From: Sulfitobacter sp. THAF37
GTDB lineage: Bacteria; Pseudomonadota; Alphaproteobacteria; Rhodobacterales; Rhodobacteraceae
Assembly: GCF_009363555.1 (NCBI RefSeq)
Contig: NZ_CP045372.1
Location: 1,178,001-1,242,000, forward strand
Length of the DNA stretch: 64,000 bases
Direction: 5' to 3'
A model generated the notes under the pieces. The model did no database searches. It worked only from the letters and a program-made list of their open reading frames with translations, and was not told the origin of the DNA. Position numbers and translations under genes: made by a program. Shown one piece after another: positions 2,628 to 49,415 of this stretch (the first letter of the stretch is position 1; the number at the start of each line of letters is the position of its first letter).

Positions 2628-3020
2628 ATGAGCGATTTTTCCCAGGCGCTTGGCGTCTCCTCCAGCGGGCTGCGGGCGCAGGCAACCCGGCTGCGCCACC
2701 TTTCCGAAAACATCTCGAATGCGGATACGCCCGGTTATCGGCGCAAGACGATATCGTTTGAAGCGGCCCGAGGCTCTGGCGACAGCGTTGGACAGGTCAC
2801 GCCAGGCCGGGTCCGTCTGGACCGCGGGGAGCTTGAACTTATTCACGACCCAAGCCATCCGCTCGCGGATGAGACCGGTCATTACGAAGGCAGCAATGTC
2901 GACCTGCTGATCGAACTTGCCGATGCGCGGGAGGCGCAGCGCAGCTACGAGGCAAACCTCAAGATGTTCGAACAGACGAGAAAGATGTCATCGGGTTTGA
3001 TGGACCTGCTGCGGCGCTGA
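2628..3020 (+). CDS. flgC: Flagellar basal-body rod protein FlgC
   Basis: Rod subunit, 130 residues, with the N-terminal motif N-I-S-N-A-D-T-P-G-Y at about residues 28-37 and the C-terminal heptad helix (A-N-L-K-M-F-E-Q) shared by rod proteins. The ATG at 2628 follows GTGACAGG, ten bases after the flgB stop; upstream in-frame codons belong to flgB in another frame. Order flgB-flgC-fliE is the canonical rod operon. Confidence 0.95.
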   Translation: MSDFSQALGVSSSGLRAQATRLRHLSENISNADTPGYRRKTISFEAARGSGDSVGQVTPGRVRLDRGELELIHDPSHPLADETGHYEGSNVDLLIELADAREAQRSYEANLKMFEQTRKMSSGLMDLLRR

Positions 3021-31997: not shown

Positions 31998-32167
31998 TGC
32001 CTGTTATGCGCCTGACATAGCCCCGGGGCCAGCGGAAATGGGGACTTGTCCGCCGGAGCGGGCTGGCGCCCATGCTCTGCGCGTTCAGGAAGCTTTGATA
32101 CGCTGCGCGATCGAGGCATGATCCGTCGTGAATGAGCCTTGCCTTGCGCCGGGTGAAATGCGACACA

Positions 32168-32362
32168 GGTTGCGCTTGGTGTTCCCGCAAGCACCCGTTT
32201 GGGTGTGGAACCGAACAGGGAATTCCGTAACGGCTGCAACGCCCGAAGCGGAAGCCGCCCCCGCGACTGTAAGCGGAGAGCCTGCGCCCAACGCGCCACT
32301 TGACCAGCCGGTCGGGGAAGGCGGGCAAAGGCATCGACCCGTGAGCCAGGAGACCTGCCAGG
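32168..32362 (+). ncRNA. Cobalamin riboswitch
   Basis: Classic cobalamin aptamer elements occur in order: a GTTCCCGCAAG...GGAACCGAACAGGGAATTCCG region, the CCGCCCCCGCGACTGTAAGCGG core (32255-32276), GCCACT at 32295-32300, CGGGGAAGGC, and GAGCCAGGAGACCTGCC at 32343-32359. It lies about 50 bases upstream of cbtB, whose AAGGAG ribosome site follows. Binding of cobalamin should turn off the cobalt transport and probably the following cob genes. The preceding bases 31998-32167 hold its promoter region; I saw no clear gene there. Confidence 0.95.
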
Positions 32363-32410
32363 CATGTGAAACGCTAACGGGCCGTCGGGTGTGACGGTAA
32401 GGAGAAGACC

Positions 32411-47253: not shown

Positions 47254-47984
47254 CCCTGATCGGCATCGGCACCGGAAATCCGGCGCATCTGACGCTGCAG
47301 GCCATCCGGGCGATCAATGCGCAGGACCTGATCCTTATTCCGCGCAAGGGCGCGGGCAAGGATGATCTGGCAGAACTGCGCCATGTCATCTGCGATGAAG
47401 TGCTGACCAACGAGGCCACCCGGATTGTTGAGTTCGATCTGCCGGTGCGCGACGAGCAGACCGCCAACTATCGGCAACGGGTCAATGACTGGCACGACGC
47501 GATTGCCGACGCCTGGAAGGCGGCGATGGCAGAGCACCCCCAGGCGGCGCGGGTGGCGCTGCTGGTCTGGGGCGATCCGTCGCTGTACGACAGCACCCTG
47601 CGGATTGCCGCGAGGCTGGATCCGGCACCAGGGGTGCATGTGATCCCCGGCATCACCTCGTTGCAGGCCCTGACGGCGGCCCATGCGATCCCGATCAACG
47701 ACATCGGCGCGCCCTTCCTCGTGACGACCGGACGACGGTTGCGGGACGAGGGCTGGCCCGCAGGCGCCGATACGCTGGCGGTAATGCTGGACGGCGGCTG
47801 CGCCTTTACCGACATCGACCCGAAAGGGGTGCATATCTGGTGGGGGGCCTATGTCGGCATGGCAGAAGAGATAATCTGCGAAGGGCCTCTGGCCGAGGTG
47901 TCCGACCCGATCGTGCAGATGCGCGCCGAAGCGCGGCAACGGCACGGATGGATCATGGACATCTACATCCTGCGGCGGCGTTAA
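47244..47984 (+). CDS. cobF: Precorrin-6A synthase (deacetylating) CobF
   Basis: Methylates C1 with loss of acetate, a step specific to the aerobic pathway. 246 residues; L-T-L-I-G-I-G-T-G-N-P-A-H-L-T at the start, L-I-P-R-K-G-A-G-K-D-D-L-A-E-L-R near 31-46 (CobF-specific) and L-V-W-G-D-P-S-L-Y-D-S-T near 109. Last gene of the region; its TAA is read on the other strand as the arfB stop (TTAA). Confidence 0.95.
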   Translation: MELTLIGIGTGNPAHLTLQAIRAINAQDLILIPRKGAGKDDLAELRHVICDEVLTNEATRIVEFDLPVRDEQTANYRQRVNDWHDAIADAWKAAMAEHPQAARVALLVWGDPSLYDSTLRIAARLDPAPGVHVIPGITSLQALTAAHAIPINDIGAPFLVTTGRRLRDEGWPAGADTLAVMLDGGCAFTDIDPKGVHIWWGAYVGMAEEIICEGPLAEVSDPIVQMRAEARQRHGWIMDIYILRRR

Positions 47985-48403
47985 TCCATCCGATCGACCT
48001 TGCCGCGGAGGGCTTTGATCTCTCCCCTGACCTTCTTGGATTTCAACCGCCGTTTCTTGGACCCCAGGGTGGGGCGCGTGGGGATGCGGCGCTTGGGCGG
48101 TGTCACAGCCTTTCTGATCAGTTCGGCCAGGCGGTCGCGGGCGATTTCCCGGTTCCGGGCCTGGCTGCGCGTCTCGTCGCACTGCAGGATCAGGGCACCC
48201 TCGTTCGTCCAGCGGCGTCCGGCGAGGCGGCGCAGGCGGGTCTTGACGGGACCGGCCAGGGAGGGCGACGTCGCGGCTTCAAAGCGGAGTTCAACGGCTG
48301 TTGCCACCTTGTTGACGTTCTGGCCGCCCGGACCCGAGGAGCGCACGAAGTTTTCCGTGATCTCCCAGTCCTGGATTGTGATGGTATCCGTGATCCTCAG
48401 CAT
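47981..48403 (-). CDS. arfB: Alternative ribosome-rescue factor ArfB (peptidyl-tRNA hydrolase)
   Basis: Releases peptides from ribosomes stalled without a stop codon. 140 residues: the catalytic GGQ motif at 26-28 within S-S-G-P-G-G-Q-N-V-N-K, no codon-recognition domain, and a basic C-terminal tail (K-K-R-R-L-K-S-K-K-V-R) that inserts in the empty mRNA channel. The ATG at 48403 is the family start but has only a weak ribosome site. Upstream on the same strand lies a terminator-like hairpin and an unusual leader (48440-48640). Confidence 0.93.
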   Translation of the reverse strand: MLRITDTITIQDWEITENFVRSSGPGGQNVNKVATAVELRFEAATSPSLAGPVKTRLRRLAGRRWTNEGALILQCDETRSQARNREIARDRLAELIRKAVTPPKRRIPTRPTLGSKKRRLKSKKVRGEIKALRGKVDRMD

Positions 48404-48442
48404 TTTGGTATCTTTGCATCTGGCGCGAGTGAATTGAACATG

Positions 48443-48470
48443 AAAAGGGCCGCCCCGGTCGGAGCGGCCC
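48443..48470 (-). terminator. Intrinsic terminator upstream of arfB (possible attenuator)
   Basis: GGGCCGC and GCGGCCC arms (48447-48453 and 48464-48470) with extra inner G-C pairs; on the minus strand the stem is followed by TTTT. It lies 40 bases before the arfB ATG and just after the leader ORF region, so on the minus strand it would stop leader transcripts before arfB. On the plus strand it is followed by AATTTT and is 460 bases past cobF. Confidence 0.7.
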
Positions 48471-48553
48471 AATTTTCGGTTTGGCGAATGGTTTCAGGAG
48501 GTGGGTCGGTTAGACCGTCTGTCCACTCGGGATTTCAGCTGCCAGGGGCTGCC

Positions 48554-48610
48554 CTAGCAGGAGGTCCTCCGAGCTGTTCCGACACCTCGCTCCAATACCT
48601 TTCTTGACAC
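48554..48610 (-). CDS. Putative 18-residue leader ORF with near-perfect Shine-Dalgarno
   Basis: GTG at 48610, TAG at 48554-48556; peptide VSRKVLERGVGTARRTSC. The preceding 15 bases (48626 down to 48612, TAAAGGAGGTGATCC) complement the 3' end of 16S rRNA almost fully, with AGGAGG seven bases before the GTG, an ideal spacing. No other start in the window has such a site. Translation is likely on these grounds, but the peptide is unrecognised and may matter only as a leader for arfB or as part of a small RNA. A 68-codon overlapping frame (48535-48741) is less likely. Confidence 0.4.
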   Translation of the reverse strand: MSRKVLERGVGTARRTSC

Positions 48611-48740
48611 TGGATCACCTCCTTTACATTTGTTGAACTCACCCTGAGGTTTGCACAGGTTCTTGTAATCTCAAAGCGATTTTTTTCGGCAGGCGTGATC
48701 CTGCGGCGCGGCTGCGCCGCACGCGATTCATTTTTGGGCA

Positions 48741-48794: not shown

Positions 48795-49415
48795 TCACGC
48801 CCTTTCGGTCAATCGGGCCGTGATGAGCCGGAACGGGATCAGCGCGACCAGGGCGATGGACAGTTTCACCGCCCAATCCGCGACTGCGAGCGAAACCCAG
48901 AGCGGGGCCATGGGGCCCGCACCAAGGAGAGGCAGAGTTTCGGCTGCCCAGGACACATCTGTCGCCGGGTGGAGAAAGCTGAGGTTGCCCGCAAATGCGA
49001 TTGAGAAAAACAGCGCGGTGTCGATGCTGCTGCCCACCAGCGTGCTGACCAGCGGCGCGCGCCACCATTTCCCGCCACGCAAGGCGGCGAAGACAGAGAC
49101 GTCGATCAGTTGGGCTACGAGGAATGCGACGCCTGAGCCGATGGCGATGCGCCATGTGACCAGCGGACCGAATTCACCCATGATCTGCGTGCCGATCAAC
49201 GAGCAGACAAGGCCCACGACGAAGCCGACCATGACCACCCGGCGCGCGGCGGCGGCGCCATAGACGCGGTTCATGATGTCGGTGACCAGAAAGGCCAGAG
49301 GATAGGTGAAGGCCCCCCAGGTCAGCCATTGGCCAAAGAGAAACTGTACGAGGATATTCGAGGCCACGACGATGGCGGCCATGGCGATGATGCCGGGAAG
49401 ATAGGTGCGTGTCAT
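48795..49415 (-). CDS. Queuosine precursor transporter family (VUT/YhhQ) membrane protein
   Basis: 206 residues, six hydrophobic helices. F-T-Y-P-L-A-F-L-V-T-D-I-M-N-R-V-Y-G near residues 35-52 and F-L-V-A-Q-L-I-D-V-S-V-F near 97 with L-V-G-S-S-I-D-T-A-L-F-F-S-I-A-F are the COG1738/YhhQ pattern. Family members import queuosine precursors (preQ0/preQ1). The ATG at 49415 removes 17 unsupported residues. Tail ends just before the REP-like element. Confidence 0.88.
   Translation of the reverse strand: MTRTYLPGIIAMAAIVVASNILVQFLFGQWLTWGAFTYPLAFLVTDIMNRVYGAAAARRVVMVGFVVGLVCSLIGTQIMGEFGPLVTWRIAIGSGVAFLVAQLIDVSVFAALRGGKWWRAPLVSTLVGSSIDTALFFSIAFAGNLSFLHPATDVSWAAETLPLLGAGPMAPLWVSLAVADWAVKLSIALVALIPFRLITARLTERA

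Follow-up and report, generated by a model that had tools for sequence, protein, structure and literature searches.

A probable Rhodobacteraceae relative of the CC2171 RNA, with a conserved 18-codon reading frame, between a yhhQ-type gene and arfB in Sulfitobacter

The locus and its relatives

On the minus strand of the window, by which we mean the whole 64,000-nucleotide stretch of Sulfitobacter sp. THAF37 contig NZ_CP045372.1 that was analysed, a candidate small RNA (sRNA) gene lies between a transporter gene with a PF02592 domain, which we take to be yhhQ, and arfB (PF00472) (Table 1). It appears to be an independent gene some 200 nt long, extending from near 48640 to 48443, with the start site near 48640 inferred from the sequence. 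Conservation suggests that the RNA has its own promoter, namely the block CTTTGCG...CCTGTGCAAC, kept in 29 distinct same-genus upstream regions, together with a TTTGA-like element in the upstream consensus of 42 other family loci, and the terminator is kept in the alignment of 30 same-genus loci. The first-pass annotation had described most elements of the locus, and the sequence agrees with it: a complement of the 16S rRNA 3' end, TAAAGGAGGTGATCC, is present at 48626-48612 upstream of an 18-codon ORF with its GTG at 48610 and TAG at 48556-48554, two anti-Shine-Dalgarno (anti-SD) segments, ACCTCCT (48565-48559) and CACCTCCT (48503-48496), lie downstream, and the terminator hairpin follows at 48470-48443. 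Elsewhere in the window, a cobalamin riboswitch (32160-32376, plus strand, 111.9 bits) is the sole Rfam match above cut-off.

Table 1. Features of the candidate RNA gene and its neighbours (window coordinates)
Feature	Positions	Strand	Detail
yhhQ-type transporter, upstream neighbour outside the RNA	48795..49415	-	PF02592 Vut_1, 105.3 bits
Promoter-like region	48647..48675	-	-35-like TTTGAG 48675-48670; -10-like near 48652-48647
Extended Shine-Dalgarno AAAGGAGGTGATCCAG	48610..48625	-	complementary over 16 nt to the 3' tail of this genome's 16S rRNA
18-codon ORF VSRKVLERGVGTARRTSC	48554..48610	-	GTG at 48610, TAG at 48556-48554; codon-19 stop in 98/99 family loci
P2, start-codon hairpin	48589..48614	-	UCCAGUGUC (48614-48606) / loop AAGAAA / GGUAUUGGA (48597-48589); GUG within stem
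P3, stem CUCGG / CCGAG around P4	48522..48573	-	own-partner vs swapped-arm scores
P4, hairpin across the stop codon	48537..48560	-	two-sided pair changes
3' anti-SD arm CACCUCC	48497..48503	-	able to pair with GGAGGUG (P1)
Intrinsic terminator GGGCCGCUCC-GACC-GGGGCGGCCC-UUUU	48443..48470	-	stem 48470-48461 / 48456-48447; four T 48446-48443
arfB, neighbour outside the RNA	47981..48403	-	PF00472 RF-1 domain, 79.3 bits; ATG at 48403

The element is widespread among close relatives. A DNA search matched 34 of 35 same-genus genomes, the window's own being excluded, and a covariance model built from 30 same-genus loci found the RNA in 94 of 120 genomes of the family (93 of 119 genera), with one match in each. 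Across the class, the same model under strict filters matched five of 385 genomes, all from the window's own family; named matches of the same type include Ruegeria and Salipiger. The family set used for the comparisons below comprises 99 loci, with L002, L005, L031, L032 and L125 left out.

Kinship to a known RNA emerged from a lax Rfam scan, in which the window aligns with CC2171 (RF01867) from the first to the last model position (1-159) at 32.3 bits (E=2.9e-5), short of the gathering score of 75 bits. It has the CC2171 5' block CAACAA..AAAGGAGGUGAUCCAGUGUC and a GC-rich 3' terminator hairpin like that of CC2171. The pattern AAAGGAGGTGATCYAGTGTC, allowing at most one mismatch, is found in 51 of 385 genomes of the class, and its reversed control gave no match. 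An exact scan of named genomes returned at least 119 stretches; among the matches listed (80 titles), two bear gammaproteobacterial labels, with ORFs that look different, four say only Proteobacteria or Pseudomonadota, and the others carry alphaproteobacterial names. In other alphaproteobacterial groups, RNAs that carry the CC2171 5' block do reach the cut-off, among them 11 of 18 chosen loci. At E<=0.001, RF01867 itself has matches in 61 of the 289 genomes of the class that were scanned, nine of them above cut-off, and only in Caulobacter among 14 control genomes. The window element thus appears to be a distant, Rhodobacteraceae relative of CC2171 that stops short of formal membership.

Some further observations concern the wider set of matches. 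Six genomes (G047, G074, G194, G278, G305 and G312) hold more than one RF01867 match at E<=0.001, which makes paralogues possible. Viral matches fell on 12 contigs, and several of these matches represent long phage ORFs that have a strong SD, not this RNA. On four viral contigs (L251, L254, L255 and L247) the neighbour of the RNA gene is a phage integrase or recombinase: PF00589 in L251 and L254 (in L247 below cut-off) and PF00239, Resolvase, in L255. In three of them (L251, L254 and L255) the gene also stands close to the end of the contig, an arrangement which suggests that mobile elements integrate at it. One locus, L048, also carries an alphaproteobacterial tmRNA (2723-3020, minus strand), some 1.2 kb away from its CC2171 RNA.

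Initiation region, reading frame and fold

The complementarity to 16S rRNA reaches 16 nt when it is measured against the tail of the same genome (GGCTGGATCACCTCCTTTCT), and it includes the G of the GTG start codon. Within the window, the 14-mer AAAGGAGGTGATCC has three matches with up to two mismatches, against 0.29 expected, and this site alone is exact; in the available 4.26-Mb genome sequence there are three exact copies. Besides this site, one lies antisense to the 3' end of a 16S gene, and the other is outside 16S at G000:C1:1175067-1175080 (minus strand), 2.9 kb before the window. An antisense or degenerate 16S copy was considered for the site itself and rejected, since the plus strand flanking 48612-48626 bears no further 16S sequence, whereas in L214 the 16S sequence goes on. 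The commonest change in the SD is C to T at 48612, seen in 11 of 30 same-genus loci. Loci L036-L184 were selected by the SD motif, so that SD counts there say nothing on its conservation, while their stop-codon counts are unaffected.

Covariation between the RNA and 16S through the start codon found no support among 51 genomes tried, of which six yielded a 16S tail. Nor do predicted folding costs single out the SD as locked. Opening the 16-nt site costs between 7.4 and 13.0 kcal/mol (predicted group medians), less than the -28.4 kcal/mol predicted to be gained in the duplex with the 16S tail, which favours engagement of the ribosome. Opening the SD core is predicted to cost 4.9, 6.0 and 5.0 kcal/mol in native contexts against 4.4, 5.0 and 5.2 in base shuffles (at most 12 loci per group). 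Accessibility is therefore not below that of shuffled contexts, except in Bradyrhizobium, where the predicted SD-core median is 10.6 kcal/mol (12 loci) against 5.7 in the shuffles. With costs so near those of the shuffles, a special locking of the SD has no energetic support, and it is unlikely on these predictions that the fold by itself keeps ribosomes off. The Bradyrhizobium-type loci (L087, L089, L094, L150, L151 and similar ones) have a 14-codon ORF, VSxxKRCHLAGIAR, and a GGUGAUCC/GGAUCGCC pairing, and on these predictions their SD core would open clearly less readily.

Codon 19 is a stop in 97 of the 99 family loci with a simple anchor and in 98 when one shorter SD spacing is allowed (L034), the exception being L020, which stops at codon 23; stops in the other frames are scattered over the same 99 loci. 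All three stop codons are used (TAG 60, TGA 24, TAA 14), yet TGG, which is one step from both TAG and TGA and could pair in P4, does not occur (Fisher p 2e-13, or 1e-8 on 61 cluster representatives, kinship being handled by clustering alone). Of 100 distinct loci outside the family, 79 have their frame-0 stop after 18-27 codons, compared with 14 and 12 for the other frames, and 13 more have it after 14 codons. The 18-codon ORF is thus very probably translated, with both its frame and the position of its stop under selection.

The RNA also appears to be structured, being more stable when folded than 200 of 200 shuffles (z -4.1). Covariation, which the first-pass annotation had suggested looking for among Rhodobacteraceae, is found for P4 and P3. 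In P4, which spans the stop codon, eight of nine pairs show two-sided changes in 97 family rows and six of nine in 30 same-genus loci, the former alignment having been fitted to the structure and the latter not. P3 scores 14.37 with its own partners against 11.93 (sd 0.27, maximum 12.75 of 200) with 3' arms swapped among 99 loci, and 14.62 against 12.36 (sd 0.34, maximum 13.30 of 300) in 69 divergent loci. In P2, which holds the start codon, 96.6% of the cells of 97 distinct rows are paired, and one of the nine pairs has a two-sided change. P1, the pairing of the SD with CACCUCC, has 98.1% of cells paired; its changes are mostly pairing-preserving and are one-sided only, because the SD itself hardly varies.

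Outside the family, a different set of helices is found. Helix H1, which is also drawn in the Rfam structure, joins ORF codons 3-5 to the segment before the terminator and scores 14.73 with its own arms against 12.72 (sd 0.23) with swapped arms in 94 loci (seven of 101 loci lacking a found terminator were dropped); for 46 non-consensus arms the values are 12.58 and 11.46, reached in none of 1000 draws. In the family, H1 is not detectable (8.87 own against 9.05 swapped in 27 loci, 11.30 against 11.53 in 70). Helix H2, between the SD/start arm and a CUGGAUC inside the ORF, is clear for consensus arms (14.29 against 11.10, sd 0.27, with codon-shuffled regions in 74 loci), shows weak covariation for non-consensus arms (20 loci; value reached by 10 of 1000 draws) and gives a mixed picture when unrestricted (104 loci; at most three of 60 shuffles as good in 40 loci, median z 1.15). 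As H1 crosses H2, the two would form a pseudoknot or be alternatives. A look-alike of the 16S tail within the ORF, CTGG[AG]T followed closely by CCTC, occurs in 25 of 94 loci outside the family against 0.5 (maximum 3) after codon shuffling. Since H1 is not detectable in the family and the family's 3' CCTCC arm is rare outside it, the two forms share the 5' block, the ORF and the terminator and not one fold; what they may have in common is a 3' or internal segment that folds over the initiation region.

Gene neighbourhood and possible roles

Of 89 family loci with 1.2 kb or more of sequence on the downstream side, 71 have a same-strand arfB that starts within 450 nt and nine have it farther away; in the other nine it was not found. 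Three of the five displaced loci inspected (L003, L011 and L020) have an ORF on the opposite strand between the RNA and arfB, alike in all three, and outside the family none of 108 loci has arfB in the 0.7-8 kb available per locus, a set that does not count L125, a same-genus locus with arfB. The upstream yhhQ is linked in 94 of 97 family loci, at least as tightly as arfB, so that the linkage of arfB looks like general synteny. Just upstream of arfB, a TAnnnT box is found in 23 of 68 close-behind starts against 3.6 in shuffles, an enrichment that makes a start of its own likely for arfB in some family members; an SD-like motif precedes 12 of the 68 (5.5 in shuffles), 34 have neither, and the window's own arfB upstream region has no exact TAnnnT box. 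In 22 of the 23 upstream regions with a box there is no SD-like motif, and arfB may be leaderless there.

The promoter-like conservation, the terminator, the intervening opposite-strand ORFs, the lack of arfB outside the family and the recovery of the RNA in most family genomes together argue for an independent gene. That the element is translated, structured and independent is in each case read from comparison, and we are highly confident that it is an independent, translated relative of CC2171. The first-pass annotation had offered, as one of its two readings, a small RNA with anti-SD motifs, and this is the closer of the two; the second anti-SD arm is kept in the family, but the first, at the stop codon, is shared by only two of 30 same-genus loci (L001 and L002).

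As to what the RNA does, the best explanation overall, and one that we consider somewhat more probable than not, is a free-standing translated CC2171 relative that engages ribosomes and acts in trans. Most likely, it would serve as a regulatory RNA that engages ribosomes, or as a small mRNA, and would work in trans. The RNA would recruit 30S subunits through pairing with the 16S tail; its start codon lies within hairpin P2, its SD could be masked by the 3' CACCUCC arm, and an initiating ribosome would open both the hairpin and the arm, with the fixed stop codon inside P4 setting how far the ribosome travels. The open or closed state could then report ribosome supply through exposure of the 3' arm or through the lifetime of the RNA, which would act in trans and not on arfB. 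Such a ribosome-supply switch is a tentative proposal, and it is with similar reserve that we rank a trans-acting RNA switched by its own translation ahead of a small mRNA, an anti-SD sRNA, a 30S decoy and an arfB leader.

The small-mRNA explanation, in which the tiny peptide is the product that matters and RNA structure only tunes its synthesis, fares best among these others. It is consistent with the kept frame and stop position and with recurrent peptide patterns, MSR..LERGVGT within the family and, in other groups, MSHCH...TWI.AS; the second codon specifies Ser in 98 of 99 family loci, three more synonymous codons being used for it, and across codons 6-12 changed cells are synonymous in 86 cases and non-synonymous in 29. 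Against it, codons 13-18 change as if the amino acids were unconstrained (eight synonymous types against 8.1 expected), the whole of the 19 codons gives 21 synonymous single-step codon types against 18.3 expected, which points to limited amino-acid conservation, and the peptides differ strongly from group to group. Moreover, the TWI found outside the family coincides with the CUGGAUC that is able to pair with the SD/start arm, so that RNA pairing may account for some of the conservation seen in the peptide. With the stop fixed and codons 13-18 free to change, the act and place of translation seem to weigh more than the end of the peptide, and a peptide as the product that matters is conceivable without being likely.

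Less probable still is an essentially non-coding anti-SD sRNA that acts in trans, whose CACCUCC would pair with the SDs of other mRNAs while the ORF is incidental. The arm that it calls for is well kept in the family, where [CT]CTCC stands in 91 of 99 rows (a script count that misses rows cut by its parser). A strongly selected stop codon does not fit an incidental ORF, however, and a CCTCC arm of the family type is present in just three of 93 loci outside the family. The first-pass annotation had proposed comparison with models of known anti-SD sRNA families, and no related Rfam family scores above cut-off, with suhB/mmgR at 13.1 of 41 bits and RcsR1 at 15.9 of 60. We regard an anti-SD sRNA of this kind as unlikely, and the trans-acting, translated RNA remains our preferred reading.

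Two explanations turn on the 16S complementarity in itself. A 30S decoy would hold the subunit through the 16S tail and so limit initiation elsewhere, and it draws on the full 16-nt complement, on a predicted duplex of -28.4 kcal/mol and on the first ten letters of the SD, which all 30 of the loci L001-L030 and 26 of the 28 loci L185-L212 have kept, both sets having been chosen without this motif. The exact 16-mer is kept in only 18 of the same 30 same-genus loci, though (and in 21 of the 28), and in the one A-start genome with a 16S tail (G049) the 16S base is C, so that the match cannot run through the start codon there; a decoy also has no need for an ORF with a conserved stop. We give it a low probability. 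Hardly better placed is a class-wide riboregulator acting on the ribosome, a translational counterpart to 6S RNA that would capture 30S subunits and, through its conserved frame and stop, serve as a short timer, its look-alikes of the 16S tail (the 3' CACCUCC, and CUGGAUC..CCUC within the ORF in part of the other groups) closing the RNA when ribosomes are scarce. Here the SD would mirror the single-stranded tail at the 3' end of 16S rRNA.

Last, a cis-acting leader or attenuator of arfB, which the first-pass annotation had offered as control of that gene, can point to the close same-strand arfB of most family loci, to the 34 of 68 arfB upstream regions that lack a box or SD-like motif of their own and to the window's own arfB, which has no exact box, but with arfB not found or displaced in part of the family, separated by an opposite-strand ORF in some loci, found at none of the loci outside it in the sequence available there, linked no more tightly than yhhQ and preceded by its own box in 23 of 68 cases, the element is probably no arfB leader and we judge this explanation very improbable.

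Comparison with known RNAs

CC2171 is said to have been reported originally by Landt in 2008. The Caulobacter transcript CCNA_R0051 may be CC2171, to judge from a gene-number offset. CCNA_R0051 is reported as a 209-nt RNA with its own promoter that rises 4.4-fold with mitomycin C, a response marked as not specific (PMC6237742), and is given as G1 in PMC5988900. Among other reports, one predicts CC2171 as an sRNA of Mesorhizobium huakuii (MH_s33; PMC5596092), another includes it in a table of Rfam families whose structures were improved (PMC11701678), and a Caulobacter profiling study describes newly found intergenic ncRNAs, which may or may not include CC2171, as not translated (PMC4117421). 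Our searches of the literature on anti-SD sRNAs, arfB leaders, CC2171 and Caulobacter sRNAs returned no functional study of the element. Little was thus found on CC2171 in the literature searched, and its Rhodobacteraceae form, present in most sampled genomes of the family, is missed by the Rfam cut-off; what stood as a 'small RNA, function unknown' entry becomes a testable question, namely what conserved translation of a small RNA achieves if the latter half of its peptide is dispensable.

The window element resembles CC2171 in the 5' block, in a short ORF that starts from GUG, in a terminator placed after the stop and in having no fixed neighbour across groups. It differs in its score, less than half of the gathering threshold, and in its fold, as the closing helix of the Rfam model, UCAUUGUC/GACAAUG, was not found in the Rhodobacteraceae form, which has the 3' CACCUCC arm, P3 and P4 in its place. 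Rfam types RF01867 as an sRNA, and its output names no ORF.

Other alphaproteobacterial RNAs share single traits with the element. RNAs of the CcsR/cuckoo type in Rhodobacter carry CCUCC motifs and so share the anti-SD motif, which here lies behind an ORF with a strong SD of its own. The likeness to Pos19 of Rhodobacter sphaeroides (PMC5036791) is that of a small RNA with a short ORF, and the same likeness extends to rnTrpL/peTrpL of Sinorhizobium; rnTrpL, however, is a leaderless tryptophan attenuator according to PMC10117765, whereas in the element described here an extended SD precedes the ORF and the gene downstream is not the same from group to group.
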